NCBI GenBank assembly: GCA_032358255.1
Contig: JAULBX010025053.1
Span: 215,249-279,248, forward strand
Reading direction: 5' to 3'
DNA length: 64,000 bases
Source of the DNA: Heterotrichella gracilis
Taxonomy: Eukaryota; Sar; Xanthophyceae; Tribonematales; Xanthonemataceae
Below are positions 117-47,900 of the stretch, piece after piece; position 1 is the first letter of the stretch; the number at the start of each line of letters is the position of its first letter. The notes beneath the pieces were generated by a model. It searched no databases. It worked only from the letters and a program-made list of their open reading frames with translations, and was not told the origin of the DNA. The translations under genes were made by a program, and so were the position numbers.

Positions 117-3100
117 CTGTCTGCCGAGGTTGCCCGCCTGCAGCGCGAGCTAGGCGAAGCCACCTCAAGCGCCGAGGCCAACGCCAACGCTGCGGCCCGC
201 CTTGAGAAGGTGACAGGCATCCTGAAGGAGGTGGAGGTGCGCGCCACAGGCGAGATCAGCAGGCTGCAGCGGGGGGTGAACGAGGCGGAGGGCAAGCTGG
301 CGGTGGTGGAGGCAGACAGGGTCAAGCTGCAGGAGCAGGTGCGGACGGTTGTAGGGTTCAGGGGTTGAAGTTAGGGTTTTGGGTTAGGGTTTTATAAGGG
401 TTTTACAAGCTGTATTTGGGTGTGAAGGAGGCGAAGGGCAAGCGGGCAGTGGTGAGGGTGAAGCTGCAGGAGCAGGTGCAAACGGTTCTAGGGTTCAGGG
501 GTTGATATTAGGGTTTAGGTTAGGGTCTCGCGAGCTGCTGCGGGGTGTGACATGTAGCCCTGCACCTTGCCATCAGACCCATACACACCGCACCCTCCTG
601 GGTTAGGGCTTCTCTCACCATAAACCCACCCGATGTCCTTACACCCCATCATCAACCTCCAACCCCCCGCCCCCAGGTTGCCAGCCTGAAGGGCATTGCC
701 TCCAAGCATGATGCGCTGCAGGGCGAGGTGGCGGCTATGGCGATGCAGCTGGAGCAGGCGGGGGGGGCGCTGGCCGCGGCAGAGGCCATGCAGGTTGGGG
801 CCCTAATAAGACTGGCCTGGCCATGGATGTAACAGTGTGATGTAGTCTAATAGGCTACATCACATCATGACATGTGATGTCATGTACCCGCAATGACACG
901 GAGCTTATCGCCTGCACCCTTGGCTTTTTCATGTATATCCCTAGCAATAGCGCAGCCACTTCTTTTGAAGCAGCCCAACGTTTCCCTTTGTCGCTAGAGG
1001 AATGGGGGGAAATATGTTGCATGCCTCATCCCCCTCCCTCCCCTCCCTCCCCTGCAGCGTGAGGCTGAGGCTGCCCTGTCTGCTCGCGAGCGCCTGCAGC
1101 GTGAGCTGGCCTCCACTCAGGCCATGGTGCGCCAGCTGGAGGAGAAGCTGAGGGTTGCTGAGGAGGAGTGCGAGGCGGCGGGAGGTGAGGGGGCGGAGTG
1201 GGAGGGGAAGGGAGGGGGGTTGGTGTGTGGGAGTAGGATATGGAGGAGGAGGGGGAAGGGGTGCGCAGGATGAGGATGGGATGTGGAAGCTAGTTACTGC
1301 TGCAATAGAGCATCACTTAGATGTAGTCTGGAACGCCATGCTCCAAACATACGGGCCTTCATATGCACCCCACCAGAAACGGGTGTCATCATACAAGCAG
1401 GACAGATTCCAACATCACAGCAGAAGTTTATTGCTTTCCCAAATCTTTAGCATTTGTTTCAGAAAACGCGCATATACTCCCCCGCCCAATGACGCCCCTC
1501 TGAACCTTGAACCCACTGTTACCCACCACCCCACCCCGCAGCGCAACTGGAGGCCGAGCGCCGCAAGGGTAGCGTGACAGCGCGCGCCCAGGCGGAGGAC
1601 CTGGAGGGCCTCCTGGCGCGCAGCGGCGAGCGCGACACCTGGCCGCTGCCTGTGCGGCGCCTGGTGGAGGAGATGGAGGGGGCTGCGGCTGAGGCTGCGG
1701 CTGCTGAGGCTCGGCAAGAGGCGGGGGCGCACATGGCTGAGGTGGAGGGGGAGGCGGAGGGGCTGCGGGGGGTGGCGGGGAGGGCGCAGGCGGCCGAGCG
1801 GGCGGCGCAGCAGGCCAGGTGGGTGGTTGTTGGGGGGGGGGAGTGGCGCCGGCAACCTTAGCCGGCGTTTTTGCTTAACTGTCCATCACCTTTGCCCCTT
1901 GTAGTCACCCCGAGTGTGACTACCCCCACCCAACTGTCATTGCAAGCCTGTGTGGCTCGGTGTGTGCCCTGCGCCATCTTTTCCCACCTGACCCTCCATG
2001 CATACACATGCGCAGGGCGGTTGCGGAGGCGCGTGTTGCCCAGCTGGAGGTTGAGCTCCAAGAGCGGGAGCGCATCCTGCGGGGCAAGCTGCAGACAAGC
2101 ACCTCGGACTCTGCCTCGCGCATCGAGGCGCTGGCGGGGGAGAACACAAAGTGAGGGCCGGAGGGAGTTTAGGGTGTTAGGTTGAGAGGCATTTACTAGC
2201 AGATATTACAGAGATTTAGGTGTGCAGGGGAAGTCGCCCACGATCAGCTTTGCACAATGTTAGTCACATGCATCCCAACAATGCAGCCAGATAGCCAGAT
2301 TATACAAAATGTGCACAGCTTACAAGTGAAACATGTCAACCATGCGAAGCACATGCCTCCCATGCGCCAGCAATCAAACCAGGATTTAACCACAATTCTC
2401 ATCCTCTTACGAACACTCAACATCCCTGCAGGCTGCGTGATGAGATTGTCACCCTGCGTGGCTGGGCGGAGAAGTACGCGCTGCAGTGGAAGGACCGGTT
2501 TGAGGGTTGTGTGCGCGAGCTGGAGGTGACCAAGGCGCGCGCTCGGGCCATGATGGAGCAGAAGGACCAGGAGATGGGGCAGCTCAAGGTGTGTGTGGGG
2601 GGGATAATGCAATTTTGATTTAGATATGGTCTCTTGGTCCACTGATCAGTAGATGTTGCAATAGTTCCTAAGATTGGAAAGTGCGGCAACTCCAGGTGGG
2701 GGTTTGATGGGGGGAGGCGCTGCGTGTGGTAAGAGTCCAAAGTTACATGCACGCCACAATGCAGCCGGCGGATTAAGGCTTCAAATCGTAGCCCACTTTG
2801 CTGCCCCACCCTCACAGGCGCGCATGAAGCAAGCGGGCAGCGGAGGAGGGCAGCTGGAGGCGCTCACCGCCCTGGTGGGCCACCAACAACCCCCCACCCC
2901 CACCCACCCCTCCGCCCCCCACCCCGACGTGGCCACCATGGAGGCGCTGCCCAGCTCACCCTCCCTGCCAGTACCCACCAGCACCAGCGCGGGCCTGGTG
3001 TCAGAGATCACCCCTGTGGAGGAGGCCTTTGTTGGTCAGAGCCTGGCTGAGCAGGGCAGCAGCTACTCCATGGAGCTGGTGCGCAGGGCGGGGAGCAGCG

Positions 3101-3757
3101 GGGTGGGGGATGGGGACGGCGGTGGCGGGATGGCTGCGCGCCTGGCGTGGCTGGAGATGCGCAACGCGCAGCTGGAGGCTGAGCTGGCGGACGAGCAGAC
3201 GACGCACGAGCTGAGGTGGGTTTAGGGTTCTGTTGGGGTTGTACTGTTTCTGGCCTCCCCCCCACCCCGGCTCCCTTCTATCACTCGCACGCACGCACCC
3301 ACTGCCACACACACACACACACGCTCTTTCTCACACTTGAGGGCGCACATGCACACGCTCTGTCCGCTGCTCTGTGTGCCATGCCCCTGCTGTCTGCCTG
3401 ATCCCTCCTCGATGTGCATCGCCACACACCTGCCCAACCAAGCGAATCATGCTCCACTTCAGGACCACCGCGGCCAGCGTCTTGAAGGAGGAGATTGCGG
3501 AGCTGCACCGCAAGGAGGCGCGCGGCACGGTGGACATTGACTACGTCAAGCATGTGCTGGTGTCAGGCTTTGAGTCGGGGGCGCTGTCCGCCAGCAGCGG
3601 CCTGGTGCCTGTGCTGGCCCGCCTGCTGCACTTCAGCCCTGGCGAGGTGGCGCGCATCGAGGAGCATGCGCAGAGGTCCAGGTTCAGCCTGCCGCAGCTG
3701 CACAGCCCCATCAAGGGGCTGCCAAACCTGTTTGGGGGGGCCGGGGGCGCCAAGTAG
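117..3757 (+). CDS. Golgin-type coiled-coil protein with C-terminal GRIP domain (5' partial)
   Basis: Eight exons join in phase (117-338, 677-793, 1058-1184, 1542-1818, 2016-2150, 2432-2588, 2818-3215, 3463-3757) to give 575 codons ending in TAG. Bases 1-116 are intron, so the start lies outside the window. Most of the protein is Glu/Gln/Arg/Leu-rich heptad sequence typical of a long coiled coil. Exon 7 holds a Pro/His-rich linker. The last exon contains IDYVKHVLVSGFES followed by LARLLHFSPGEVARIEEH, which fits a GRIP domain, including the conserved Tyr that binds Arl1-type GTPases in known golgins. GRIP golgins tether vesicles at the trans-Golgi, so a Golgi role is inferred. An intronic duplicate of the first exon's end follows at 422-526. 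I am confident of the family; an orthologue name is not justified. Confidence 0.85.
422..526 (+). repeat. Mutated intronic copy of the 276-390 exon end
   Basis: Bases 422-526 repeat 276-390, which spans the last 63 bases of the first visible golgin exon, its GT donor and the following telomere-like intron start. The copy has substitutions and a 9-base deletion, but keeps GCTGCAGGAGCAGGTGC and the TAGGGTTCAGGGGTTGA block. It lies inside the intron and has lost the reading frame, so it is an exon relic, not an exon. Confidence 0.85.
3305..3322. repeat. (CA)n microsatellite
   Basis: A short CA dinucleotide run in the last golgin intron, upstream of the acceptor at 3461-3462. Confidence 0.8.
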
Positions 3758-8059: not shown

Positions 8060-11000
8060 ATGCCTGCAGGCCCCTCGGAGCCAGAGCCCGAGGCCCCACC
8101 AGCAGAACTCAGTGTGGCCCCTTCCTCTCCAACAGCGAGTGGCCCATCAGAGCACGAGGAGGAGCCACCCGCACCCAGCCCCAAGGGCCAAGACCCAGAG
8201 CCCGGCGGCGCCAGCCCGCCCCAAGACAAGCACCCGTTTGCGTTCACAGTGCGCAGGAAGCGCACAGCCAATGGCAGCTACCTACCAGACCCCTCAGACC
8301 TGAGCCAGCAGGCAGCGGGCGCCACCCTCTCGACCCAGAATCCCGGCAGTCCCCCGCCTCAGCCAATGGAGGGTGTGGAGGCTAGCCATGAACCCAGCCC
8401 CCGGGACCCAAGCAGGCCCCCACGGGGACCCCCGCTGGCAGACTTCCCCTTCCCCCACCTGGCGACAGCTCCCACAGAGCCAATGGCCAGCCTGTACGAG
8501 CCGGACGCGCTCCCCGTGTGCGGCGCCGCAGCCGGCGAGCCGCACCGGGATGTGCAGGACAGGCGGTGGGAGTACCAGCCGTGGGCGGGCCTAGCACCCC
8601 CCACTGACCCCCTGCAGACGCTGGCTGCTGCTGCAGACCTCGGTGAGATGGGCATGCGCGACGAGCGCGGAGCCTACCACCCTGGCCACCAGCCAAACCC
8701 CTTCCAGGCCGCCGCCGCCGCAGCAGCAGCGGCGCAGCATGAGCGCCTGCGCGACGCCCACGCACAGATCTCGCCGCAGACCTGGCTTGGGCGCGGCCAG
8801 CCGGAGCGGCCGCACCCAGAGCAACGCGCCAGGTCCTCCGGGAGGCCCAGCCAGCAGACGCAGCAGCACGCGCCCGCCTCCTGGGCTGCCAAGCCGCTGT
8901 ATGCGGTGCCGTTTGAGGCGGCGGCGGGGGGCCGACAGGCCGCGGCGCCCAGCTACCCGCACAGCCACAGCCAGGGGCAGGCGAGGGCGTCGCACGGCGG
9001 CGGCGCTTCCGGGGATGGCGCGCGCGCCGCCAAGAAGCACTCGCGCAAGGACAGCCAGGCGGGGCAGGAGCCTGCTAACAGGGTGGGTGCCGTAGGGGGC
9101 TGTTGGCCATAAGGGAGGCTGAGACACTGGCTGCACGCTAGTGGCACAGGTGCTCTGCACCGGCACATGAGATATGGGGCCTAGTGTGTGACGGAGAGCA
9201 AGGGGAGATCTTGGCATGGGGCCCTTGCTTCTGCACATGTTTGTCCCTTGCACCGTGCAACCAGGCATGCCCTTATGCCTCGTGCGTGGCGCGCCGCAGG
9301 ACGCCGCCTCGCCCTACCACCAGTCGTCGCGCGGCAAGGACAGCATGCCCACCCCATCTGGCGCGTCGGACGTGCTCAGCAGCGGGCGCGCCTCCCAGGG
9401 CGACGCGCCAGCTGTGAGCTGGGGAACCAAGCGCCAGCGCAGCGTCAGGCCGTCAAACTCCTCGGTGAGCAACATACGTCAATAAATAGCGGGCAAAATA
9501 CTTGAATAAAATGTATGAGTATCTACGCAGCCTGTCCTTGAACAGGCGCGTTGGTTAGGGAAGAGGGTTTAGCAAAGGGAACGGCCATGCCTTCTGTGCA
9601 CTGTTTCCCCTCCCATCACCTCCGTGAGCACCTAGGCACCCACCGACTGTGCATGTGCGCCCTGCTCACCCGGCGTGTCAGTTCAAGCGGGGACAGCGGC
9701 GAGGAGTGGGGAATTTGTGTATGTGGGGACAGCGCTGTGTATGTGCAGGAGGGGTGGGGGGTAATCGCACCAGTATTTGTTGCGGGGCACACAAGGCTGC
9801 CCGCTGTCTGTGCATTTGTTGGGCAGGCTTGCGAAAGGGGGCAGGCAGCAACTCACAACATAAACATCTACGCAGCCTGTCCCAAAGGGCTGTGCAAGGC
9901 TGACTGCTAACCCTAACCTGTTTGGCTTTAAGAAAACCCTGCGCCCCCAGATTACACACTGGCAGACTTTAAAGAGTTGCATGTCAGCAGCTGAATACCT
10001 AAGCGTGTGCTGTGCCCCCCTGGCAGGTTTCTGGCGACAGTGCGCGTGGTGGTGGTGGTGGTGGCGGCGAGCGTGAGCACAGGGAGCGCAGCCACAGCAC
10101 CAGCCCAATCAGGCGCAAGCAGCGGAGGGCGCAGGAGGACGTGGTGCGTGCGCTTGGATGACGCTGGGTCCTCATTGGGGCTAGTGTGTGCTGCATGCCC
10201 AGAACGCCTACGCGCGGTGTATCGATGCATGGTTGTGCATTCTTGGTGCATACTTCATAGTGAGCCTGGTAATGAACGTTGGGTACATCTTGCCATGCTG
10301 AATTATGAGATATGGCCTGTGACCAGCGCCTGGATGCGCACCAGATGGCGTATGGGCAGCAGTCGAGGAGGGCCGCGAGGTCTGAACCCTAAAGGCTGCG
10401 CCCCTGACCCTACACCCTACCATCCGTAGGCCACCCTTGAGCAGCGCCTGAACGCCTACGAGATGGTGTCTGGGCTGCAGCGCGAGGTGCAGGAGTGGCG
10501 CGGGCGCTACTCCTCGCTGCAGCAGGACTACAACCAGCTGAAGCAGTCGCTGATCGTGATGAAGGACAAAGGGGAGGAGCTGTTCCAGAAGATGGCCAGC
10601 CAGTTCAGCGAGCAGGAGAGAGGTAGGGGGTACACTACAGAGCGCTCGGAGCATTGTTTGCGCCATTGTCACTGTGCCACCACAATATCCTACCTCATGT
10701 GCCACCACACCATGGTACCTCAAAAGCCTGCCCCCTCGTCTCTTAACACTCTTTTTCCTTGTCCCTGAAAACCCTATCACCGTGCCTTAAAAATCCTACC
10801 TCGTCGCCCCAAAACCCTGGGCGCAAACCCACACCCCATGTCCACTTCTTCAATTCCACTAACACCGCCCCACACCCCGCAGGCCGCGACATCCTGCGGC
10901 GCAAGGAGGACGAGCTCGACCTGAAGGAGGTCAAGCTGTGCCACCTGTTTGGCAAGGTGGCGGGGGACCTGCAGGAGACGCTGGCGGAGCGCAGGCAGGC

Positions 11001-14000
11001 GGAGGCATTCTGGAAGCAGGTGAGGGGAGTTGCACAGGGATAAGGGTATAGGGTCATGGTAGTTTTGTGGGGTACCACTGGTTCTGCAGCCTGTTGTGTT
11101 AGCTTCATTGTACCAATGGATGCAACCTACCCTGTAATTTCCTGCCCGCATGCCCAGGAGACCTTCAAGGTCTTTGTCTACATTATCAGGGTGTTGTTCC
11201 TCCTGAAACCCTCCAGCTAAACCCTCCCCTGGGGTTCCCTGCCCGCAGGCCCAGGAGATCTTCAAGGTCCAAGCTGCATACATGCCGGAGCTTCTGCAGT
11301 TGCTGCCCAAGCCCGACGGGGATGGGCGGCCGGGGATGGACCAGCCAGGCATGCAGCAGCGCTTTGGCAAGCTGAGCAGCATCCCGTCCAACGCACGCTC
11401 ACGAGGTGGGGCGCTGGGGGCTGGTTGCATGTGTGGAGGGATCGGGAGGAGGAATGGGGGGGAGGGGTGATATGTCTTGACGGGTGCAGCGCGCGAGGGG
11501 TTGGGGGGTGAGGGGTTTGGGCCGGCTAGTGTGCACCGTGGTCGGTTTTGGGTTGACGATACTCGCTGGACGCGGGAGTGAGGCCGGTTGGATGCCACAT
11601 GTCATTTGCATATACCAAGGTTTCATGAATGAGTTTAGCATCTGCCCTCACGCTCCTCCCCCGCTCACCCTGTTCCCTCTTTCCCCCCCTCCCCAGCCGA
11701 TGAGCTCAGCATGCTGCTGCCTCCACCCGAGCAAGCGGGGCTGCTTTCCTCCCTGAAGAACCTCAAGGACATCCCCAGGGACATGGTCATGCATCCCCGG
11801 GGCTCCTCCCTGGTCAAGTTCCTGACCTCGCCACCCATCCTCAGCAACAAGGGCATGCACAAGGGGGCGCAGCTGGGCCCAGGTGGGGCGCGCACCCAAA
11901 CCCTAAACCATAGAACCTGTCTCGCAACCCCTTGGCGCAGCGGTGTGCTGTGGTGCTCGGGTCAAGAAGGGTCCCTGGCTTGGTGGGCAGTGTTAATACA
12001 CTGGTTGGCGACATGTGTTGGGTGCATGTGGGCAATGTGTTCCAGGTGAAAAAGGGCGTGTACAAAAAACCGTAGGCTTTAAAGAGCATGGCATCACTGC
12101 CTGGAAACCACTCATTGAGCAGTGGTAATCGACATCTCGTGATTTAGGTGACAATGCTATGCACTTGATACCATCCCCTTTGCTCCACCAAGGGTCCTTC
12201 ATGCACTCCTGTCCTCTGGCAAACGACCCTGACACACCTTGCCCACGGTGCTCTTCCTGTTGTTCATAGACGGTCATGACTTCCACCCCTTGACATTCTC
12301 CCCCCCTTGGCAGGCCCTTCGCAGGGGCCGGGCAGCAACATGCAGTCCCAGCGGGGCCTGCAGCGCAGCTCATCCATTGGCGTGCAGCAGGGCCACCAGG
12401 CGTCAAAGTCCCTCCCCGCTCCATCCGTGCGCCCCTCCTCCCCCTCACAGGCCTACCGGGAGGGGGGCAAGCGCCAGCAGTCCCCACCACCCGCCGGCCA
12501 GAGCGGCCGCGGGTCGCCCCCGCCCATGGTGCGTGACTGAACCCTAAAACCTGAACCTATTTAGAGCTGCCGCGGATCACCCCCGCCCATGATGCGCAAC
12601 TGATCATATTTCAGACAGACAGAGTTGCATTTGGCATGCACAACGAGGATCACTTCACGACTGCATGCATGCTGCTTCACACCTGTGTGGTCACCGTGAC
12701 CCTACCAGTGCTTGACAACCCTTCTTCCCCACCCCCAATGGAACTGCTGGGGAGCATTCCAGCACTTCACGCCTGCTGTGATGTCCTCCATTCACCTGCC
12801 GTGGTACCCTAATGACACCCCCACAATCTCATGCTCCCCTTTCCCCCCTTCCAGGCGGGCCCCCCTCAGGCCAAGGGGGAGCGCCCCTACCTCCCCACAT
12901 CATCCGCCCAGCAGCCCGCAGCAGGTTTCCGTGACTTGTTCAAGGAGGGGGGGCCACAGGCGCCAGGCAAGCACCAGATACCCATTCCGCTGTCTTGTGA
13001 GGGACCAACATTTTTTTGTTGTGGTACCGTACCGGGGGTGTATATTTTATTAAATTATATTCAATTATTTTGGTTCCATATAAGCTAAGAAATTGATGCA
13101 CGGGGCACCACAACAAGTTAAAAACTCTTCGAAATGTCAAATTTGGTCACATTTGTCCAGATTTGGGGGTTTAGGCTCGATTTTGCCCGGTTTAGGCACT
13201 ATTTTGACCCTCACAAAATTCCGGAAATTCGGCCTTCGGCCTCCACAAAATGTTAAATGAAATTCCCCGAAATGCTTCGGGGCCCTCCACAAAAGTTTAG
13301 TTTCACAAAATATATACCCCCGGTACGGTAGTGAGAGGGACCCTTTTATGCTTTGTTGTGTTTCTCCAAGTATCATCCTCACTTTTGGTCGCATGTCTCC
13401 ATCATTGTGCACATAAACAACATGGTGTGCTGTGTGAGGCGTCAAATTATCATGTGTGTTTGTTAATTTCATGCACTCCGTAATGCATTCACACCATTGC
13501 AATGGCATCCAATGCAGCAGTATGGGGCAGGTGGCAGGGAGGGGTGGCTGACTCTGCTTGTCTTGATCCCATTTACCCTTGCGTAGGATTTGGAGGCATG
13601 CCAGGGGCCGCACCCAGGGGCACTTCCTCCCCTGGCTCGTCACTACAAGCGCCCTCTTCGCCTCGCCCGGCGCCGCCCTCCGCCAACGTGCCTCGCTCAC
13701 AGCAGCAGCAGCCTCCATCAGGTGCGCACCAAATCCTAAACCCAAACCCTAAACCCTAACCAGCAGCCCCCATTATGTGCATCAGGGCGATTCGCTCCTG
13801 ATACACTTGCTTCCTGGTTGTCAAGTTTTTTGCCCTATAAACCCTAAAACGCCCCAATTTTTGCGCAGGTCCGCCGCAGTACGAGGGCGGCCCCTCTGTG
13901 CCTCAGCAGGCGGAGCGGGGCGAGATGCGCCCTCCCCCGCAGCACCAGCAGCAGCAGCACCCAGACGATGACCAGCCAGGCGAGCCCTCGCCCTTCATCC

Positions 14001-16375
14001 CCCGGCCAGGTAATAGACATACATCTTGTAGGGCTTTGTTATAATGATAATAATCATATTAATCATGTAAGTAATGCCTCTCCCATACCATGTGCCCCTC
14101 CTCCTGCACTCCATGTATCCCTTCTCATGCCTTGTCTGCGTCCTCAGACCCCACATGGCGTATCCACCATCCAACCATGTGTGCTCCCCCCCCTCCCACA
14201 GCCAGCGCCTTCAAGCGCAGCCAGAGCGGCAACCAGCGCGGCCCCCTCCACCCCCCCTCCCACCCCCCCATGCCCGGCATGGGCCCCGCGCGCCCCGGCT
14301 CCGCCCCGCTGCACAGCACGCTGTTCAACGCATGGAAGCAGCTGTTCTCAACTGTGAACGGCCCGCTGGGCAAGATGGAGGGCGGGATGGCGGGGGCTGG
14401 CAAACCTGGAGGTGCGTGGCCACTTGGGCTTTGGTCGGGTGGAAAAGGGGAGGGCGTCTCACGTCATCAACAGCTTTTCTTATCTGTTCTGGTGTTACTA
14501 GGCAAAATTGTGGATCAAATAAGATGGGTTTGGTGAAAGCGCAAAGGTATCTGCCCGTCTTGCCGCCACTGCAATAGAAATTGGTCATCCTGTAGCTCTG
14601 GAATGCTGGGTAAGGGATACCCGCAAGAACCTCAAATCGACATGCTTGGCTACCCTTAGTTTGGAAAAAGAAAACTCTTAGTGCACCCCATGGCAGATGA
14701 CATGGTGGACAGGAAAGCAATGCCTCTGCCTTTCCTTTCTGCAAAGCTCGCCCAACGCACCTGTCCAAAGGTGGCTGCATCTATGATTTTTGAATGTAAC
14801 ACAGGTTCGTAAATGCCCTCCATTGACCCCTCCGCCTGCCCCCCCGCAGGCCCCCCAGGTGGCAAGCCCTACCCCTTCCGACCAATGCAGGGCATGGGCA
14901 AGATGCCAATGCCCATGCCAGGTGGCGGCAAGCAAGCCGCGCCACCAGGCTTCCACAGCCAGCAAGGCATGATGCGTCCCCGGGGCCCGGGCTATGGCCC
15001 CCGCCCCTCCGCCGGCCCCATCCCGGATGTTGGGGATGGGTATGCGCGAGGGGGCCCGGGCAGGGCCGCAGCCCCGAGGTTTGCGCCCCCTGCAGGACAT
15101 CCCCGTCGCTCTGAGCAGGTGTGGTTCCCTTGCGGGCTGTTTTACCTGGCCCTTGTACATGCATGTGCTGTGCATGCGCCCAGTGGTGAGCCGTGTTTAG
15201 GGCGTGTTTCCCTAGCAGGCTGTTTCACCTGGCCGTTATAGCATGCCTGTGAGCAGTATTGAGCTGCATGTGGGACACAGGAGCGGTGCCTGGTTGGGGG
15301 CGGTAGCTGTTTAGGGTTAAGGGTTTGGGGTGGGCAGCTGTAGTTGTCGCGAGCGCTGGCCCGTGTTGGCTCCTTGCCACATGGCGCAGTTGCCAAATGG
15401 TCCATGTGGCACAGCCAAACATTTGGATGGGAAGCCAACCCACAGACGTTTGTACCAACCTGGTGTATTGAAACTAAACACAGGAGTGCACACGTGCAAC
15501 ATTGCACCCATGCGTATTACACAAGCAGGGTGACACTCAAATGTGTAAACGTCCCTCTTTCTCCAAGTCCCAACACCATGTTCCCATCCCCAGGATCCCC
15601 AGGGCCTGAGCTCTGAGATTGAGCAGGCTCTGATGGACTTTGACTTTGGGGCGGCACAGGCAGGCCTCGGCAAGGTACTTTTCGACCCTAAACTCTAAAC
15701 CCTCACCTGGCGTTTGTGCCGGAACGACGCTTGTAGTAAATAACCCTAAACCCTGGGTATATGTCTCCATATGATATCGCTTGCTGGTGTGGGTTGGGCC
15801 TCATTCTTTATCATCGCCGTGTGCAAATATTCAATGAGAGAAATGGCATGCGAGAACAGTCCTAGCTCGCGGGCTTGAGTGGCATGTATGATGTGCCAGC
15901 ATGTAGTTTATATGTAGTTTAGCGGAACAGCCAGGTTAGGCGCGAGGCTTGCACATGCCAGCACCAAGCACCTCAACCTGGCACAGGTTACACCTTGGCA
16001 TGCACATACAATTGCAGTTACCCAGCTTTTTTACCAAAGTCAAGTACAAAAGTGATGCACCTAGTCACACTGGTCACCGGCTTCCCTACAGGCTGGCTTC
16101 CTCTCTAAACCCTACACCCACCCGGGCAGGCCGGCTTCCTCACTAAATTCCAATTCCTCGTTGTTACCCTAACCCCCCCCACCCTGCAGGCTGGCTTCCT
16201 CCCCGACGCCTTTGAGTTCCTGAAGAAGGTGTGGCAGCGCAGCTCGCCACGCGTGCACGAGATGGTGCTGGCCTATCGCGAGCACGTGCTGCAGCGGGAT
16301 GGCGCGCCCGACTGGCGCGCGTTCATGTTCAAGCTGTTTGGGGAGGACGCGCTCAAGCCCTTCATGCGCCATTGA
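8060..16375 (+). CDS. Large Pro/Gln-rich protein with a central coiled coil, function unknown
   Basis: Fifteen exons (8060-9082, 9300-9464, 10027-10143, 10430-10622, 10883-11019, 11249-11405, 11697-11882, 12314-12528, 12855-12996, 13596-13721, 13869-14009, 14202-14411, 14850-15118, 15594-15674, 16190-16375) give about 1,115 residues ending in TGA. ATG 8060 is the first ATG in frame. Residues 1-390 are Pro/Ala/Gln-rich and contain basic runs (VRRKRTANG, RRKQRRAQED) that could serve nuclear import. Residues of about 436-550 form a coiled coil (LNAYEMVSGLQREVQEW, LQQDYNQLKQSLIVMKDKG). A long disordered Pro/Gly/Gln/Met tract follows. The final 62 residues are compact and conserved-looking (DAFEFLKKVWQRSSPRVHEM). 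I recognise no family; scaffold or RNA/chromatin roles are only guesses. The acceptor of exon 10 is uncertain (see findings). Confidence 0.75.
9523..9882 (+). repeat. 17-bp direct repeat pair in intron 2 of the coiled-coil gene
   Basis: ATCTACGCAGCCTGTCC occurs at 9523-9539 and again at about 9866-9882, inside the intron between exons 9300-9464 and 10027-10143. The coordinates given cover both copies. It is one more short internal duplication in these introns. Confidence 0.7.
10313..10370 (+). repeat. Intronic relic of the start of exon 10430-10622
   Basis: Bases 10321-10362 resemble 10439-10480 (about 34 of 42 identical): GACCAGCGCCTGGATGCG against the exon's GAGCAGCGCCTGAACGCC. The relic precedes the true exon by 118 bases. 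Degenerate CCCTAAA-like sequence (10384-10427) lies between the copies. Confidence 0.75.
11141..11172 (+). repeat. Intronic relic of an acceptor and exon start, acceptor destroyed
   Basis: Bases 11141-11172 match 11238-11269 at 30 of 32 positions. The true copy reads CCTGCCCGCAG followed by GCCCAGGAGATC. In the relic the acceptor AG has become AT, so only the downstream copy can be used for splicing. Confidence 0.85.
12563..12603 (+). repeat. Intronic relic of an exon end and donor, donor destroyed
   Basis: Bases 12563-12603 match 12500-12540 at about 35 of 41 positions. The true copy spans the exon end at 12528 and its donor GTGCGT. In the relic the donor GT has become AT. A telomere-like ACCCTAAAACCTGAACC separates the copies. 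Confidence 0.85.
13024..13330. mobile_element. Short terminal-inverted-repeat element (MITE-like)
   Basis: The ends are a 24-bp inverted repeat with one mismatch: TACCGTACCGGGGGT followed by GTATATTTT at 13025-13048, and its reverse complement at 13307-13330. The 306-bp interior is AT-rich, has no coding frame, and contains a small palindrome (CCCCGAAATGCTTCGGGG). A 3-bp GTG flanks both sides if the 5' end is set at 13024, a possible target-site duplication. It lies in the coiled-coil gene's intron, 28 bases after the splice donor. The superfamily is not assignable from this copy alone. Confidence 0.7.
13731..13760 (-). repeat. Interstitial telomere-like (CCCTAAA)n
   Basis: About four CCCTAAA-type units, some imperfect, begin nine bases after the splice donor at 13722. 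The plant and green-algal telomere repeat is TTTAGGG, so the motif is in reverse orientation here. Confidence 0.8.
15685..15755 (-). repeat. Interstitial telomere-like motifs next to a splice donor
   Basis: CCCTAAACTCTAAACCCT begins ten bases after the donor at 15675, and TAACCCTAAACCCTGGG follows at 15740-15756. Both are degenerate CCCTAAA repeats within the last-but-one intron of the coiled-coil gene. Confidence 0.7.
16088..16147 (+). repeat. Two intronic relics of the last exon's acceptor and start
   Basis: The true last exon starts GCTGGCTTCCTCC at 16190, after a CAG. The same acceptor-plus-exon edge appears twice upstream, at 16088-16109 (ACAGGCTGGCTTCCTCTC) and 16126-16147 (GCAGGCCGGCTTCCTCAC), each followed by CTAAA-type sequence. 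Using the first copy would run into an in-frame stop before the true exon. Confidence 0.8.
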
Positions 16376-19494: not shown

Positions 19495-19497
19495 CAT

Positions 19498-28147: not shown

Positions 28148-31100
28148 ATGGAAACGAGGCACTTGTCCGTGCCTTCACTGGTGTACCAGCTGGTTGAAAA
28201 GTTGGCAGCAAATGCACAGGTGGAGGTCTCAGAATCACTGCAGAAGCTTGCAGTGAGCAAGTCATTTGAGGTTCTGTTAGACCTTGGCGCGGAGGTAATT
28301 GTGGTTTGTGCCGCTTGGTGCCCATCACCTTCACCGGGTCATCAATTATGTTTATCATGGATGGATACCGGGTTGTCAAGGTTGATACACCTGATTCTGT
28401 AGGAGAAATTTTATTCGTCATTGCACGGAAACCGCTCTGATCAGAACAAAGGAAGCATATGCAAGGTACGCAGTTTGCTGATGCCAGTGACATCAAGTCA
28501 CTATATATCAAGATGGCGCCATCAGCATGTAGCATAGCCACAAGATGTACGTGGGTTGTCAACGCTCATCACACTATTTACAGGTGCTTCATACACAAAA
28601 GGATGATAGCCACTTGCAAAGGCTTCTTGGCTTGATCACCGAACTCGAAAGGTATGCGTTCACTGGTATGGCCTCACTGCCTGTTCCCAATAACCAAACT
28701 CCTACCCTAGACCTGCAAGCACTGGACCCTATACATTCAACCTTGTTATGCGGTTCTGCAGCCAGCAGCATGTCTGGTTGGAGCTGCCTGCCGTGCAACT
28801 GCAGGCGCACACCCAGGGATTTGCAGTCCCCCTGCAAGAAAAGGATGCCCTGCTCTCCTTCTTGCTGCTCCTCAAGGTACAGAACATACTCTTCAGCTCC
28901 TCGTTTGTACAATTGTGGAACCCCAGGTATATGCTATACTTAGTCGTTCATTTAATCAGTTGTGAAACCCATCTCACCATTGTTGTGTTTCAGAACCCTC
29001 CACCGGACGTTGCTCCTCGGCAGCCTGATCCCAGGACCGGTAGCACAACCACAGATGGGGCCATGGGCAGTGCGGAGGTTACAAACTCTTTTAAACAGCA
29101 GGATATGCTTGATGCGTTTCCCAGCCTACCGCATGCAATCGATTTTGGGAGCAGCCAGGTACGTGAAGGGATGAGCAGGAAGCAGCCAAGGTGGAGTTGC
29201 AGAATAAATAATGTATAAGCAGCTCACTGCATGTGCGATTGCTTCTTGCCGTCGTTTTGACGGGTTTATCACATGCCTTGATGCAGGCATGCGCCGCACA
29301 GATGGACAATGTGCCATGCTGGACGGACACAAATGCAGTCACTGGCAGCCAAGCGGGCAGTTACAAGCATGGCCCCCACCCTGCTGCTACCAGAGGGCAC
29401 GCCTCAGTTCAAAGCACAGCACTGGAACCTGCCACAGCTGCAGCCATGGATGCTTTGCCTGGTTCTGGGACACTATTTGGAGCCCAGTTGCTGAGCACCC
29501 GGGAGCCTGGTGTGGGCGCTGTGCGGGGGGCAGGGCTGGAACCTCCCAGCAGCTCTGAAAAGCAAGGACAGGATTTAGCTGATGGGGACTTGTCAGATCC
29601 TGTTGTACCGTATGATGCAGACCTCCTGCAGCTCATCCTGCTGGCGCTCCAGGTACAGCATCTGCTATCTTTGCATGCATTGTATGCGGGCTCTTTACAC
29701 CGTCGCCGGATACCGTCTAGGCGCTGCTGGGCAAATCTGATTGTGAGTCTATGTCGTGGCATGTGACAAAAAATCATCTCCATTAAAAACAATGGTGACT
29801 GACTCCATGTATATTCACACCTGACTCAGTGTATTTTCATACCAGGGAGTGCGGCAAGCAGTTTCCAAGCTGCAAGCCATTCAGGAAGCGACAGATGGCG
29901 TGACAGTGACGTGCCTGCACAGCATGCTGACAGATGTACTGGCGGCTGCTGAGCTGCACATGCGCCTCGATGTGTTCGTGTCCGCTCAAGGCGTGCTGGC
30001 AGGGTACGCCATGGGCTATGGGGTCTATAACCACTGTGCTTGCTATGTGGCGTGGTGCAGCTGGGATGCGTGCACTGTCGCCACTCAATTGTGTGTCTTG
30101 TACATGCACAGTACCCTACTTGCACTGTGGCGCATGGCAGCAGAGCGCAATTGAGGCTGTATTCGCAAACTCATTGCAGTACCCACTGACCATATCTCCG
30201 TCATTACCCAGGGTGCAAGGCCACCCCGCAGCACACCCAAAGGTCATGAATTCCCCATACACAGGGTGGATTCCGACCCCACAACCCATGCCTTTGTGGC
30301 AGCCATCAGCCAGCTGCTTCGGCTCCAGGACGCAGCTGTGCAGGCCATTCCTGCGGCGGTGTTCAAGCGCAGGCAGCAGGAGGCGCTGCTGGGTGACCTG
30401 GCACAGTGGACCAGGCTGCCGCGGTTCCCTGTAGAGGCGGCTCACCAGCCCATCTCTCTGCTCGAAGTGCTTCTCCACACCCGCAGGTTGGGATTTGAAC
30501 AATGGTTGAAGTGCATGGCATGGCCTGCTTAATTGCACCAGGCTAGTACCTGTGCAAATGACACACGTGTCTAGTCCTAGGATTACATCGGTTGTGACTG
30601 CTATATGCACCATTGCTGCTCTCCTGGCCATTGGAATTGGCAAGCTATGTATGTATGTTAGGCATGCACCTCATACCATATACCTGCCCTATATATTCTA
30701 GAAATCAAATTGTTTGGATTTGAAAGGTCAAATGGCTCTGCATTCAGTGCGTGGATGGCGCGAGCTGCTCCGCGCGCACCGCATGTACCCGGATTTCCCC
30801 CAAAATCTGCCTATGCCAATCTGCCTATTGTGCAGGCTGGCTGAGCAGGTGCAGTGGATGGCTGAGCTGTGTGCGTGCCTTCCTGCATATGCCAGCGATG
30901 ACAGCGATGATGGCAATGATGGCAACATGAGTAAGTGCACCATACAGTTGGAGGTAATATTAGCTACGTGCACAAAATTACGCGACGCATCGGTAAATGC
31001 GCGTTGCTCAGCAACCCTAATCCCTAAAAGCTGGGCCTCATTGTCCTGTGATGTCCCAAGGTTTATTCTCATGACAGGTGGAAGGCTTCCTTGTTGGTCC

Positions 31101-34100
31101 ACGCCCTGCTGTCGACCTGTGCCAGCACCTGCCATATGCCCCCTAGACTCTCCACAATATACCCAACACACCAAAACCCGACAAGGCAAACCAGGGAATC
31201 CTAGTAGCTGAGCCACTGCCCCGCAGGCCCCTCTTTGTGGCAGGTGGACGGCTTCCCCGTTGGCCCCCACCTGCTCTCCTCCCTGTACCAGCACCTGCTG
31301 TATGCCACCAACGAGGAGCACCTGCTGCTGCGCTACCTGTTCAGCGCATGCATGCGGCCCTACGTGGTGCACATGCGCTCCTGGCTGTACACGTGTGAGA
31401 GCATGCACGCGGGCTGGGCGCAGGCAGGCGCTGGCGAGGGCTGGCTGGCGCAGCAGGTGCGGGTTGGTTGAAACTGAATCCAATTGCGCCCGGCGCAGCA
31501 AGTGCAGGTTGTCCCTGATGCAACTGGTGCAACTTGCTCGCAGTGGAATGAATTTGTGTCGTCACCGCAATCAGGCACGCACTTAACCCACTGTGTGCAT
31601 TGCAGCATCACAGCCAGATGAGCGGATATGTGTAATGCTCTGAACTTGATTTGGCTGCGCAGGACCATCCCACTCCCCTGCCCGCCTTTTTGGCCCACCT
31701 CCAGCAGCAATTTGACCGAGCTGGCGCCCAACTGAGGGTGTTGGCCCGCCTCAATCTGCCCTGCGTCACCTCCATGTTGACCAAGATGGCGCAGCTGGCC
31801 CGTGAGGAGAGCACAGCAGTGCAGGCTGTGGAGCGGGGCAGCTGCCAAGGAGGCGCTGCACATGTCAGGCGCAGGTTGGACCACGGCGTAGTCGGCAAGG
31901 CTTCTGTGGGTGGGCTGGACTGCCCACTGGTCTACACTGCCAGTGCTCTAGAGGAGGTGAGATGGGACACATGCTGCTGCACACACAAAAATGCACAATT
32001 TTAATAGTTCTCCCCTTGCCATTACACCTCCCATCAGAAAATCGTCTTAATTGTTCCGCATGGCTATCGGTCCATATGAAATTCAGACTTACGTGTACTG
32101 CTATTGCAGGTGCGCCAGGTGTTGGGCGACGTGTGTCAGGCACAGGATGAGGTGGTGCAGCGCATGCCCCGCCAGCTGGCAGCAGCACGTGAGCGCCACC
32201 TGGCACAGGTGCATGCTGAGGTGGCACAGCGCAAGCAGCAGCTGGCAGCGGCCAGGTGGGCATGCAATTGGTTGGCTGTGAGCATGCAGTCTGATCTTTT
32301 GCACCACGCGTGAACAACGCGTACGCCAGCCGCTGTCACAGCCGCTGTGCTGCTTTTGGAGGACGCCATGCGCGCACCTCCAGGCATGCGCTTACCCCGT
32401 GAACATAATTACTCCCCCTTGACTCAAGTGATGTGTTAGTGCAGCAAAGCTGTGTGTCAGAGGTGTATCACATTCCCACATTGCACATGGGTGTGGTTAA
32501 TTTCTGCAACAATACAAACTGTCTCAAGTTGGCTCCTGCATGACTGGACAAAATCCTGACGATGTCCAACACTGTGGCATGTAGGGAAACCCAGGCTGCG
32601 CACGCAGCCGCAGTGCAGGCGGAGACCGCTGAGGCCCAGGCTGTGATGCGCAAGGAGCTGCTGCAGCAGATCCATGACGTGCAGCAGGAGCGGGTGGTGC
32701 GCAAGGAGCAGCGCATAAGGTAAGTGATGGGCATGCGGCATGTGGCTGCTCCCAGCTGCAGTAAGACCATGTGCCTGCTCTCTGCTGCAGTCAGACCATG
32801 TCAGACCACCTCTGCTGGGTTCACTGTGTTACTTGATGGTTTGCTATGCACTCGTTGCTTCAAAGGTGTTAACCCTGTCTTGTGACAATGGAACAATGTG
32901 TGTGGTTTTTGCAGGGAGGAGCGTGAGGTGCTGTTGGATCAAGCCAGGCGGGAGCGGGACATCCTTGCGCAGGAGCTGGGTCGATCCATATCAGCTGCAC
33001 AGGCGGCGCTGCAGGCAGGTGGCGGGGCGGCGCAGCCCGAGGCTACAGAAGAGATGCAGCCCAATCAGGGTGATGACCTGGATGCCAGCAGCCAGATGGA
33101 ACTGGAGGCGGCGAGCATGGACCCTCCTGTAGAGTTTTCTGGTGAGGAGGAGGCAGCCATCCCGCATGAAAGCGCAAATGGCGAGAACCCTACTGTCAGC
33201 TTAGTGGAGTCCATTGTGGAGGGAGAGCATGCGCACAGCCAGAGCTCCCAATGGATTACATCAGAGGCGCATCAAGCTGCAAGAGGCGATGCGGGCGGTG
33301 GTGCCCCTTCCAGCAGCCTTACAGCAGACACACTTCCAGGGCACCATGTGGTTGAGAGTGGGTCAGACACGAGGGAGGGGGTCATGCTTGACAGGCTGGG
33401 GAGTGAGGCAGATGCAGCACCTTTGGGCGGTGCTCCAGACTCATGGGTGTCAGCAGCAGCTGCAGGGCTTGGGGACACAGGCTCTGACCCTCTTGAGGGT
33501 AACGCAGGTGATGCAAACTGCCATGCAGAGGGTGCCTCTCTGCAGCAACCATCGGCAGATGGCGGTTTACACGCGGCTTGGGTGCAGCAGAAGTCAAAGA
33601 GCAGCAGCAGTGCAGGCGATGCACCTGCGCCGCTTCAAGCGGTAATCGACAGCTGCTTGGCGCACGGCATCAGATCCCAGTACCACAGGATTAGCCGCGC
33701 ATGCCTGGAGGTATTCCTGCATGAGCTCCACCTGGAACAGCATTGGCAGGCAGTGCAGAGGTACTTCTTCCTCGGGGCAGCTGACTGGGCAACTGGCCTG
33801 GTGGCGGCCATCAGCCAGCACGCCGCGCGGCTGCGGCCCTTGGATGACAGGGTTTTGCAAGGGTTTCTGGAAGACGCGGTCAAGGTGGGTTTGCAATGTT
33901 GTAGCTCATTCGGGACTAGTGTGCACATGTGACACAGTTTTTGCCAAAATGCTTGTCTAGGGCATGTGTGCAATTGCGATGTATTTATATACAAACAAAT
34001 GACAACACATATCAGGTCTACTCACCACATTACTGTGCTGTATTGTCAGGGTTCCAGTCTGGAGCATGACACATTCGCGCCCATGTTCACCTTGCGGATG

Positions 34101-35990: not shown

Positions 35991-35995
35991 TTACA
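35991..35995 (-). terminator. Candidate polyadenylation signal TGTAA (beta-tubulin)
   Basis: TTACA on the plus strand reads TGTAA on the beta-tubulin strand, 437 bases after its stop. Confidence 0.45.
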
Positions 35996-36431: not shown

Positions 36432-38825
<2,394 letters not shown>

Positions 38826-40798: not shown

Positions 40799-42067
40799 AA
40801 TGGCAATGCCTTGTGTTGCAATGCAATTTGATGGGAATGATGGTGGTTACACGGTACTCTGAGGATGGTCGATTTGCCAAATGCAAACACTTTGCCAGGC
40901 ATTGCCAAGCGCAAACTTTGCCAAATACATTGCCAGATATTGTCATTACGGTGTGAATGCATTGCCATATGGCATTGCCAAGCATCTTCTTTATGCCAAT
41001 CTGGCAAACGGTCATACATGGGCTGCACCTATTAACTGGTGTAGACGCTGCAAATTAATTCCTTCAGCTCTGCACCACCGGTTACCGGGCAGCATTCACC
41101 TGCATTGGTGATTCATTCAGCACTTACAAGTGTTGTAGTAACGTTTTTAGCCGTTCTAGCTGGTCGCGGTGCCTTCGTGCGATCGCTCGAGCCGGTGGCC
41201 TCCGCCTTTGTGCGTCCCCTTTTTTCCTTTCTTCTTTCTAAACACGTCGTGTCAGTGACACTTGTCAAGGTTTGTGACTCCGAATGGGTTTCAATTAATT
41301 TTAAATTTGTAATAAGGCGCCATGCAATGCAGTCAGCCGCGGCGCTGCTGCAGCACTCAGTGAATTTCTACTTTGAAGCATTATGCGCTGCAATCAGTGA
41401 AAAGTTACTTCTACTTTGAAGCATTATGCTACGAGGCGTATTGTACTTGCCCCATGATACTTGCAAGTGATTGTAACACACTGTGTTGGCTATTGTTTGA
41501 ATGATGCATATACTTTGTGGGGCACAAACTGATTACAGAGAATCTTCACTCTGAGAGAGTGGTGGCACTGGGTGATAACGGGCATGGATGAGGATCATGT
41601 AACATTCAATAATTTATAACAGCATGGAAGGTTGCCGCAAGTTAGCATAGATGACGTAGGCCAAACGCAGTGCACTGCATCTGCTGATCGTAGACTACTA
41701 AGTATGATAATCATTGTTCAAATGGCAGTTCATAACATCAATCGTGGGATGACACCCAGAGGGGAGTCCGGAAGAAAAAACAAAAAAATATATATCTCCA
41801 TACGACTTAGGTCTTTTGACGCAATTGCAAATGACGATGTCTGGTCACAACCATGCAGTGAAATTACGCCAGGGTCACATGAGGTCCAGCTCCTGGGATT
41901 ACTGAAGCACAATCTTTTTTTCAATTGCCTGCAGGATCCAAGACTCGTGGCATACTCCAAATAAAATAGGTGATATGCAATGCTAATTGACTTGATATTC
42001 CTCAATCTGCTTCCAACCGTCCTCCTCCGGGCCATAATACCTCACGCTTTGCTAAGCACATCCAGGC
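40799..42067. other. Convergent intergenic region
   Basis: This lies between the TMEM53 (+) and cysteine protease (-) stops. A TTGCCA-rich stretch at 40873-40982 repeats loosely. TGTAA candidates are near 41472 (+) and at 41537-41533 (-). No gene is visible; the 104-codon frame at 41105-41419 contains no recognisable domain. Confidence 0.55.
41366..41429 (+). repeat. 21-bp direct repeat pair
   Basis: TTCTACTTTGAAGCATTATGC occurs exactly at 41366-41386 and 41409-41429, each preceded by a CAGTGAA. It is intergenic, a short local duplication like those in the introns. Confidence 0.85.
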
Positions 42068-43835: not shown

Positions 43836-44094
43836 AGTTGCAAGGTGCCTTTGGTCCCAGCAAATATATGTGGCCAATGCCTACCCAGGCCAACCTGCAA
43901 AGCAACCGACTTCACTACAATAGTGTACCACTGGGCAAGCCAGACAAGTCCTTGAGGGTGACAGGGGACCAGAGGACAGGGTGTCATGTGATCTACAACC
44001 AACTTTACAGTAGAACACTGTCGAGGTTGTGCTAGGACGCCCAAGTGCTGCAAATCACAAGAATATTTTCGGACGCGGGCTTGTTGTGTGTGCT

Positions 44095-44432: not shown

Positions 44433-44662
44433 CGCTGGAGCCGTACCTGCCACCAGCAAGTCGAGGGGGTTATACGACCCTGAGCGGAGGTTGAGCAAGT
44501 GTTACCCACGACGCAATTAGAATACTGGCAGCTGCTGCTGTTAGTTACAACTGAACATAACAAACTAGCCTAGGCTGCAAGTAGATCCTTTTGTCTTTCG
44601 CCGCCAGGCAACGCTTCAGCTCAGGTGGACAACGTGACTTGGGGTCATGTCAGGTGGCCCAG

Positions 44663-44681
44663 CAAACCCTAAACCCTAAAC
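44663..44681 (-). repeat. Interstitial telomere-like (CCCTAAA)n
   Basis: CAAACCCTAAACCCTAAAC contains two exact CCCTAAA units, 306 bases upstream of the tentative pseudouridine synthase start. Confidence 0.85.
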
Positions 44682-44986
44682 ACCTGCCAGCATGCCATGG
44701 TGGCCTCAGTGATGACTGCAAAACTGACGGCGGGGACTCGGAACAGCAGGTTTTCTGGCAGTAAACATATTTCTGTATATTGGGAAAGGTTTCTTACGAA
44801 CCTTCACGTTGGGACAAACGCACCGCCCACAGGGTATCAGGTGACCTGTCACTGTCACTCTCACTGTCACTGCTTGCACAGCCAGTGAACTATCAAACCT
44901 GCTCACCTGATTTGGGAGGGGTTTTTAAACAGCTTTTGGTACCATGCCTGCTATTTGCAGCACAAAACGCCACACAGAATCTGGCC

Positions 44987-47900
44987 ATGTTGAGGGTGGC
45001 TCGGCGCTGGTACTGTTCCCACTCAAAGGGTGCGTCGCCGAGCAGTACTCGTTTCACTGGAGCATGACGTCTCTGAGTGTCATGATTCACCGTCTGTGGC
45101 GGTGGTGCCCGCTAATCACAACTGCATGCATATGACATGACCCTCTCATTGCATCTCCCAAACACATGGCGGCATGGAATGGAGTTGGACGGCGACTAGT
45201 GAAGTGTACACTGTCTTCAAACCCCTTTCCTTGCAGTGTATCACATGTTGCACGGTTGGGTTCCCTGGAGGCAGTGATGGCTAAATCAAAATCTCTGATC
45301 ATTGTGATGCCAACATTGTGCTGAGCCTCTTGCACCATCCTGCACCAGCGTGGCGCCTTGGCGTGTAGCTTAATACATCACATATTTGCATCCCTTAGCA
45401 TACACCGCTGATTCTTCATTGTGCCAATGAACCCTAGGGTTGGGCACCTGGCTTCAACAGTGGCAGGCGACGCCTCAGGTTGCGCACCAATCAGGCACTG
45501 AGCCACCCACTGGTGAGTAGAGCAAGACCCTTGTAAAGTTCCATTTTTTCTGCTGTGCATACGTTGACCTCACAGCGGCATTGTATGTGCACGGGGAGCG
45601 ATTGGCGCCTCATAGCGCAAGGTGTTCAGTGGCAGACCCTAAACCACAAACAGTGGCCACTTTTGCGAAATATTGCCTCCCTCCCCCACACACCTTGCAC
45701 ACGTTGGCCATCGACCATGCGCCTGTCCACCTGCAGCCCTGCAATGGCTGCGCAAACAAGGCCCTGCCCTCCCGTTGCCGCTCCTCCACAGCCTGTTCCG
45801 CAAGAGGGTGGTGCGGGTGGCCTCCCAAGGTGGCACCCGAGTCGCCCGCGTGGCAGCCCACGCCCACCTGGCACCTGGTGACTGCCTGCTGGTGCCAAAG
45901 TCAGTTGTGGCAGCGCAGCCAGTGGAGCCAGCAGGTGGGTGAACATGAATGGCTGCATCTGGATGTGTGTTGCCGGCCATCCAGTGGCTGGGATGGTGCC
46001 CAAGTGGCTTGCATTGCCATTGCTGGTCATGTCCTAATGATGGAGGGCTGGGGAGATGATGATCGTGTCATGTTTCCTGTCTGCATGGGATTGATTAATC
46101 CTGCACGCGTTACGATTGGACCATGGGCTACCCAGATGATAATATGATGATGGTGACATGGCTCATGACCGCATGAGATTTAGTAATCCTGCATGCGTCA
46201 CTGGCTGCAGGGCATTTGAAAATTAACCTCTCTTTTGCCCCTCGCACAGCCAATGACAGTGGCTTGAGGCCTCAGCTGACCGCCCACCAGCAATCTCTGG
46301 CGCGTGGGCTCGCGCGCCAGCTGCTGTACAGTGACAATGACCTGCTGGCCATCAACAAGCCTGCAGGGCTGGCAGTACAGGGGGGCAAGGGCATTGCGGT
46401 GTCCGTTGACACCCTCATGCACCATGGGTTCCAGCACCTAGAGGGGGCGGATGGCAGTGGGCTGCGGTGAGTGGGATCAGATTTTGGGATCATATTGGCA
46501 ATGTGTAGTGTGGAATAATGCATCCCAGGGGTCCATCTACATGGTTGTGTGCCATCATGCATGCCACTGGGATGCAAATGTCCACTGTCTCCTCGCACGT
46601 GAACTCAGTCTGGCGGTAGAAAACCGATCTTAGGATGGCAAGATGGTGGTAATGTTTGCAGTTGCTGGAGATAGTCACGCATCGAATGGCATTTGGCACT
46701 GAAACATCGTGGCTGGCTGGTCTGCGTGTGCGCAGGCTGGTGCACCGGCTGGATAAAGACACAAGTGGTGTGCTGCTGCTGGCACGCAGTGCACATGCGG
46801 CTGCCTGGCTGAGTGCAGCCTTCAGGCAGGGGGCTACCAGCTTGGGGCAGGACTGCAGCAAAGGCGCCGCACATGGTGCGAGGTGTTGTAGGCAATCGGC
46901 GTCTCATCAGGTTGTTGCAAAAAGTTGGGGATGCCTGCTCAAGGCACCATCTCTTGGTGATGGTTAGATAGCAATTGCAATTGATGATGGTGTGGTGAGG
47001 GATATTTTCGGTGTTGTGATTGGGACCTGCACGGCACCTTATTGGCATAGGCATCTATTGTGCTTCCATTGTATATATATATATATATATATCCAGTCCA
47101 TGACAAAGGTTGCTTGCTGTGCAAGAAGAGGATGGATTGTTGTAGAATTGGCATTGATGAATACTGCATGGCACAGGTGAAGTAGGTGTCTCCAAGAGAT
47201 ACTGGGCCCTAGTAGAAGCTCCATCTCAACGGTTGACTAGGGGGACAATCAGTGACCCAGTTCCTGCCAAGAGAGACCAGAATTGGGCACCAGGGCATGA
47301 TGGAACAGCGGGGCCGGCAGAGCCCTTGCAAGGGGCGGTCACGCACTACAAAACCCTAGCTGCTGGGTACGGCCTGGCGTGGCTGGAACTGCAACCAGTC
47401 ACAGGTGCGAGAAGCATACCTGATTGTGGTTGCTTTCAGGATATAGGGGACCAACAGGTTTTATAATGTACTGATTAGATCCTGATGCATCAGGATCGAT
47501 GTTGATCTGGTACAACAGCCTCCACATGTGATCTGCTAGGTTACTCCTTGGGCATCAGTGATGCATACGTTGGCAGCTATCAAGTCGGTGTGTAACTGGC
47601 CTTGTGACTTTGCAGGGCGCAAGCACCAGCTGCGCATCCACTGTGCACACAGCCTGGGGACGCCAATCGTGGGGGACAGCAAGTATGGGTGCACGCGCAA
47701 CGCCACGCAGGTACTGGGTTAAGGGTTTAGGGTGCAGTCACTATGCCACGCAGGTACTGTTCCTTGTGATTCATGTTGACCCAAACGACTCTTGATGTGA
47801 CATACAGCGCCACGGATTACCTTGTGAGTTGTTAGTATGTGCAATGTTTATCGCTTCCCAGTTGCGTACTACCATGCATGCATGCCATGCACCTCCACCT

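Follow-up and report, generated by a model that had tools for sequence, protein, structure and literature searches.

Why should an intron carry a second, mutated copy of its own splice junction? The question is raised by a 64,000-nucleotide stretch of the genome of the xanthophyte Heterotrichella gracilis (contig JAULBX010025053.1, positions 215,249 to 279,248; hereafter the window, in which features are numbered from its first letter), where an inspection of the letters, which we call the sequence-only reading, had listed eight places at which an intron repeats the neighboring exon-intron border and had proposed that a local process duplicates these borders within the neighboring intron and lengthens it. 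That process is borne out by the analysis reported here, and we add to it that telomere repeat often fills the gap between the copies. We suggest that introns in this genome may be lengthened by local break repair that leaves a junction-telomere-junction arrangement, a reading to which we assign a probability of about 0.6. To our knowledge, intron lengthening by means other than transposons is poorly documented at the level of the single event; here, source, filler, and copy can be told apart in single steps of widely differing age, which affect ordinary genes and about one in nine sampled introns, and they offer a testable link between the telomere machinery and gene structure, since the fillers are often telomere repeats and are located at splice junctions.

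The sample was drawn from one assembly (GCA_032358255.1; 68.5 Mb nuclear, 903 contigs) and comprised 314 kb, the window together with 25 stretches of 10 kb. The window and 20 arbitrarily picked stretches on large contigs (L003-L022) made up a first sample of 264 kb; the other 50 kb (L023-L027), two stretches of which adjoin the window, were fetched later as a hold-out. Direct repeats no more than 1 kb apart were sought by a self-alignment scan (+2 for a match, -3 for a mismatch), and pairs in which at least half of the bases were of low complexity were excluded from counts. In the first sample, 127 pairs scored at least 30, compared with 3, 0, 3, 3, and 0 in five block-wise dinucleotide shuffles, while 95 pairs at 34 or more and 69 at 40 or more had no counterpart in the shuffles. 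Second copies at all eight of the listed places align, with scores of 30-126, and their bounds had been placed correctly to within about 15 bp. Gene models came from a self-trained, ab initio finder that started from 23 exons read by eye, all from the window, and one tubulin reading frame and was then iterated. Its output in 264 kb was 402 exons. Predicted exons shorter than 45 bp, genes with fewer than 150 coding bp, and a relic called as an exon at window positions 428-475 were left out before counting, leaving 279 introns in the first sample and 60 in the hold-out (339). The predicted beta-tubulin, judged by eye, reads through from the usual start, with a spurious extension ahead of it, and its best match among solved structures is 6u42, a Chlamydomonas structure; parts of four predicted proteins, with exons joined and relic exons removed, match Pfam domains.

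A copy of a junction or exon edge was present in 39 of the 339 introns, each intron being counted once, on the donor side in 25 and on the acceptor side in 14, and the earlier observation that both sides are affected is upheld. Alignment of introns against their flanking exons, with the exon-swapped and mid-exon controls that the sequence-only reading had called for, came out in favor of that reading: at a score of at least 30, the nearest 60 exon bases matched their own intron at 16 donors and 16 acceptors, out of 324 each (32/648), and matched swapped introns at 0 of 905 donors and 0 of 903 acceptors (0/1,808), while in exons of at least 180 bases, to which the mid-exon control was limited, segments lying 100-160 bases from the junction matched the intron in 0 of 153 and 1 of 159 cases (1/312) and far exon edges in 0 of 153 and 0 of 159. 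Pairs scoring at least 40 that link a junction with its adjacent intron numbered 25 in the first sample against 8.3 expected, a figure never reached in 300 rolls of the annotation, and 7 in the hold-out against 2.6 expected, reached in 1 of 300 rolls. At the same threshold, intron-intron pairs numbered 21 against a roll expectation of 15.3 (4 against 5.7 in the hold-out), exon-intron pairs 5 against 5.8 in the first sample, and intergenic pairs 8 against 20.5 (3 against 3.9 in the hold-out); the junction excess was the only one repeated in the hold-out.

The copies are short (median length, 54.5 bp in 42 junction pairs) and stay close to their source, at a median of 51 bases beyond the first 25 from their own junction, and 89% fall in the half of the intron that is closer to that junction. 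When junction segments were compared with the rest of their own intron, 47 matches were direct and 1 was inverted across the 339 introns, a ratio that rules out fold-back or inverted copying. All detected intronic events, junction and intron-intron together, amount to 79 that do not overlap, and their contribution to total intron length is 6,999 of 118,736 bases, or 5.9%. The direction is intron lengthening, not intron birth. Comparison in register of donor with acceptor surroundings in 337 introns gave no match at 10 or more (0.93 expected) and 7 at 8 or more (5.93 expected); with matches at chance level, intron birth by tandem duplication is ruled out for this sample. The telomere heptamer encloses the splice site at none of the donors and at one acceptor of these introns.

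The telomere repeat of this genome is TTTAGGG, arrays of which begin 4-138 bases from the first base of six contigs; PMC8226300 describes this repeat as ancestral to green algae. The stretch between copies is often composed of TTTAGGG or CCCTAAA repeats, as in TTTAGGGTTTAG, which lies between two 43-base copies in L025. Tests of telomere filler on the first sample are not independent, because the idea arose from those data. The density of exact heptamers in that sample is 7.46 per kb for introns, 2.25 for intergenic DNA, and 0.34 for exons, with 19 motif families of the same composition at 0.58-1.99 per kb in introns, and the hold-out densities are 5.72, 2.89, and 0.35. Counted on either strand, AAACCCTA has 92 occurrences in 97,040 bases of intron and 28 in 95,969 bases of intergenic DNA, and exact telomere motifs are present in 132 of the 339 introns (about 39%). 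In the zone between 10 and 70 bases from the donor, motif density exceeds that of the intron interior by a factor of 2.64 (95% interval, 1.91-3.59), with the two senses equally common (2.12% and 2.07% of bases); 20-70 bases from the acceptor, the CCCTAAA sense occupies 2.24% of bases against 0.30% for the other. Genome-wide, CAGGTG is followed by TTTAGGG within 5-35 bases 1,877 times and the opposite order is found 941 times, overlapping matches included, compared with 76 and 92 for the patterns read backwards; with CCCTAAA, the counts are 1,586 and 1,324 (backwards, 64 and 65), the second order also capturing acceptors.

The association extends to the position of the motif between the copies. 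A spacer of at least 8 bp is present in 33 of the 39 introns with edge copies and, with one pair taken per intron, 21 of these 33 spacers contain the heptamer (18 of 24 in the first sample), compared with 4.5 expected from segments of other introns matched for length and distance from the junction. In the first sample, which has 32 spaced edge pairs, the share of bases taken up by the motif is 15.1% in their spacers, 4.3% in the copies, and 5.2% in the non-exon flanks, the figure for all introns being 2.2%. Once telomere bases are masked, a local repeat straddles 44 of 205 intronic telomere clusters, 59 of 1,653 matched motif-free points, 85 of 1,814 clusters of control motifs, and 35 of 1,467 such clusters away from telomere motifs; when one cluster is taken per intron, the comparison is 22/132 versus 4/207. 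A single sense was seen in 37 of 37 telomere-bearing spaced pairs (among 79 spaced pairs of all classes, some of them overlapping) and in 197 of the 205 intronic clusters. Two marks of insertion at breaks are thus present, the species' own telomere repeat as the inserted sequence (in 21 of 33 spacers, the other 12 having no heptamer) and one orientation per insert.

Within the window, the pairs can be followed one by one, with originals and copies on the + strand. The end of the exon modeled at 117-338 and the start of its intron (272-390) recur at 418-526 with 97/119 identity (score, 126; blastn, 82%), beyond a TTTAGGG-like spacer at 391-417. An exon start at 10438-10480 has a relic at 10320-10362 (34/43 identity; score, 41), and the acceptor junction at 11223-11269 has one at 11126-11172 (40/47; score, 59); the spacers of both, at 10363-10437 and 11173-11222, contain motifs in the CCCTAAA sense. 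The exon end at 12528 with its intron start (12500-12540) is copied to 12563-12603 (35/41; score, 52) across a CCCTAAA-like spacer at 12541-12562. An intron start with its donor at 15118-15167, absent from the earlier list, matches 15201-15251 (42/51; score, 52), the spacer at 15168-15200 ending in GTTTAG. Two relics of one acceptor junction lie at 16084-16103 (19/20 identity with 16182-16201; score, 35) and at 16117-16141 (22/25 with 16178-16201; score, 30, which is weak alone). The acceptor junction at 31238-31309 is copied at 31072-31143 (57/73; score, 56), and a short relic of the donor junction at 31447-31466 lies at 31492-31511 (18/20; score, 30, again weak alone). In a gene for RNA pseudouridylate synthase (PF00849; E value, 6.7e-23), the region around the exon end at 47710 (47687-47716) is separated from its relic at 47730-47759 (25/30; score, 35) by an almost pure telomere repeat, GGTTAAGGGTTTA, at 47717-47729. 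With the exception of 31492-31511 and the inner copy at 16117-16141, the window pairs are beyond chance.

Once made, the copies behave as dead sequence. The sequence-only reading had drawn attention to destroyed splice sites, and the changes of AG to AT in the relic at 11126-11172 and of GT to AT in that at 12563-12603 are real; loss is not a special feature, the splice dinucleotide being kept in 31 of 42 junction pairs (some from the same intron) compared with 29.0 under neutral decay, and selective destruction of copied splice sites is ruled out. Mismatch frequencies at codon positions 1, 2, and 3 are 0.118, 0.156, and 0.183 in 44 exon-derived pairs, that of the intronic part is 0.177, and a length divisible by three was found in 11 of 47 gaps. 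Such mismatches and gap lengths, in which the reading frame is not conserved, rule out alternative or mutually exclusive exons. On this evidence, the intronic copies decay like neutral DNA. The earlier remark that relics differ in divergence also holds: the events differ in age, because identity ranges from 0.72 to 0.95 over the 42 junction pairs and reaches 76/78 in one pair in L017. That pair (9122-9199 and 9303-9380, 103 bases apart) extends across an acceptor into the exon and is the youngest such event seen; the region presumably encodes a response-regulator domain, and the transcript may contain the exon twice.

The sequence itself shows direct duplication over short distances, a geometry that spans junctions, telomeric spacers, neutral decay, and lengthening without birth, and we infer from these features a staggered break, fill-in of its ends, and a selective filter. 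Nicks on opposite strands, tens of bases apart, would leave overhangs that share a stretch U; both ends would be filled in, short stretches of telomere repeat would be added at an end, and joining of the ends would convert L-U-R into L-U-telomere-U-R. Where U spans a junction, the outer copy would stay in use for splicing, and the inner copy and the telomere scrap would become intron and decay neutrally. Wholly exonic events would mostly be purged by selection, and intronic and junction-spanning ones would survive; wholly intronic duplications, with neither copy constrained, would fade faster. Part of the junction excess may therefore be a product of this filter, and pure targeting of junctions is inseparable from selection and detection. 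Some junction preference is nevertheless probably real, since telomere motifs, which are detectable regardless of exon conservation, also peak near splice sites. The targeting of splice junctions proposed by the sequence-only reading is to this extent retained, and the data suggest that breaks or insertions occur preferentially near splice sites; linker DNA beside exon nucleosomes and transcription-linked nicks are speculative candidates for the cause. Between the two mechanisms originally named, slippage and break repair, the latter is favored over plain slippage because 33 of 39 cases are spaced and 21 of 33 spacers carry an exact heptamer.

Several observations weigh against this reading. 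Telomerase, as opposed to the capture of telomere fragments, can be put forward as the source of filler by inference only, because the side bias that it predicts was not seen: of the edges classed as primed, 8 of 13 had the U base beside the filler in register, as did 8 of 14 of the others. Motif-bearing spacers made up only 3 of 9 in the hold-out; 12 of the 33 spaced cases lack an exact heptamer, and 6 of 39 edge-copy introns have no spacer of at least 8 bp. Among 20 spaced intron-intron pairs, the copies are richer in the motif, at 14.7% of bases, than the spacers are, at 9.3%. Intergenic telomere clusters are straddled by a repeat in only 2 of 85 cases, and the process is therefore tied to genes in a way that the model leaves unexplained. 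The purge of exonic duplications is also uneven, since exon-exon pairs at 40 or more fell short of expectation in the first sample (3 against 7.5) but exceeded it in the hold-out (6 against 2.7), where those at 28 or more numbered 21 against 7.3 expected. A more ambitious proposal, that telomerase and the telomere fill-in machinery act routinely at breaks near exon-intron borders and that introns grow stepwise in junction-telomere-junction units, is in our judgment tentative, with the odds somewhat against it.

The main competing explanation, which we consider unlikely although it survives best, reverses the order of events: telomere-like motifs already present beside splice sites would trigger tandem duplication of junction plus motif through slippage or unequal exchange, and the motif part would then scramble fast and come to look like a spacer. 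The excess of motif in the copies of intron-intron pairs fits this scheme, as does the presence of the motif in both copies of some pairs (L008 3511-3616, L003 494-580, and window 272-526); gaps are shorter than 8 bp in 5 of the 25 junction pairs scoring at least 40 in the first sample, in which 70 of 219 introns with no detected repeat also carry the motif. A tandem unit would, however, leave its other motif copy in the copies or the flanks, and in spaced edge pairs motif density is highest in the spacer; in four cases (window 12541-12562 and 47717-47729, L014 8666-8704, and L019 1659-1696), the spacer holds the only motif when 25 flanking bases are taken on each side. Two independent processes, a generic break-repair tandem duplication such as occurs in plants, where Schiml and colleagues reportedly described it in 2016, and an unconnected insertion of telomere motifs into the same fragile sequence near junctions, would account for the 19 introns of the first sample with a local repeat and no motif and for the 70 with a motif and no detected repeat. 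We regard this combination as less probable still, since shared hot spots alone are insufficient to place the motif between the copies in 21 of 33 introns when 4.5 are expected at matched distance and length. Retention of motifs and decoy junctions as splicing aids or regulators is very improbable: the CCCTAAA sense is pyrimidine-rich and branch-point-like and is the only one common near acceptors, but the senses are balanced near donors, the copies decay neutrally, and avoidance of a new AG could by itself produce the acceptor bias. Chance, low complexity, wrong gene models, or real alternative exons can be dismissed almost entirely, for although gene prediction was ab initio and took some relics for exons (window 428-475 and L017 9138-9182), the shuffles and swapped introns came out nearly or wholly empty, the copies preserve neither frame nor codon positions, and events are present in genes whose products have known domains, namely those of a protein kinase (L008), an EF-Tu-type GTPase (L014), a histidine-kinase ATPase (L017), and a major facilitator superfamily [MFS] transporter (L022).

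Break repair with telomere filler has partial precedents. Mammalian interstitial telomeric sequences were inserted at double-strand breaks (Nergadze et al. 2007, PMC2246262) and resemble the present inserts in being short intrachromosomal stretches of the telomere repeat proper to the species, with target duplication in some cases. Such duplication accompanied 6 of 130 rodent and 4 of 25 primate insertions, most others showing a deletion or no modification (PMC2246262, Table 1), whereas flanking duplication of tens of bases is common here and is found within introns, close to splice junctions; in the mammals, microhomology in register with the repeat at the break well exceeded expectation. Tandem duplications arising from paired nicks or breaks with 3' overhangs through fill-in by CST-Pol alpha (Schimmel et al. 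2021, PMC8355091) are likewise direct, local, and tens of bases long and are made by filling complementary overhangs, and the fill-in complex, CST, is one known from telomeres; the accessible text mentions neither telomere filler nor a link with splice junctions. The duplications in our sample agree with that class in being local, direct, and of this length and depart from it in their spacing, the copies of staggered-break duplications being expected to abut without long filler. For plant telo boxes, telomerase acting at recombination ends was proposed (Gaspin et al. 2010, PMC3022908). They too are telomere-unit motifs in genes, and in Arabidopsis they are enriched in 5' untranslated regions and not in introns (150.7 per Mb versus 155.2 genome-wide; PMC3022908, Table 1), whereas the introns studied here are richer than intergenic DNA. 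Direct repeats at intron borders have been interpreted as marks of insertion and attributed to break repair (Rogers and Bendich 2025, PMC11782384); the likeness is in direct repeats near splice sites, but that comparison is of the 5' with the 3' border of an intron and ours is of one border with the interior of the same intron. No description of telomere-bearing junction duplications was found in the literature searched, most subscription journals being outside its reach; within it, telomere insertion and break-made duplication are each known, and their combination, its frequency, and its placement at splice junctions are absent.

Some further observations concern repeated events at single junctions. 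The last introns of the predicted MFS transporter gene at L022 6637-8255 form a dense cluster with several nested junction copies, including a junction-to-junction pair with 113/126 identity. In genome-wide listings, near-identical words consisting of donor plus telomere or telomere plus acceptor are found from two to four times over, at intervals of about 70-170 bases (G000:C13:260943-261266, C12:125981-126119, C16:146481-146628, and C21:119727-119932), as if one junction had been duplicated repeatedly.

Three other repeats were noticed in the window. The predicted intron at 12967-13586 contains a stretch of about 310 bases (13024-13330), seen by eye, with near-inverted ends (GTACCGTACCGGGGGTGTATATTTT ... 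AAAATATATACCCCCGGTACGGTA), which resembles the remnant of a small inverted-repeat transposon. A predicted coding exon has a 51-base in-frame tandem duplication at 55911-56014 that repeats 17 amino acids (48/53 identity at that offset), a kind that an exon could tolerate. Outside predicted genes, an exact 21-base direct repeat occupies 41366-41386 and 41409-41429, and its 22-base spacer contains no telomere motif.

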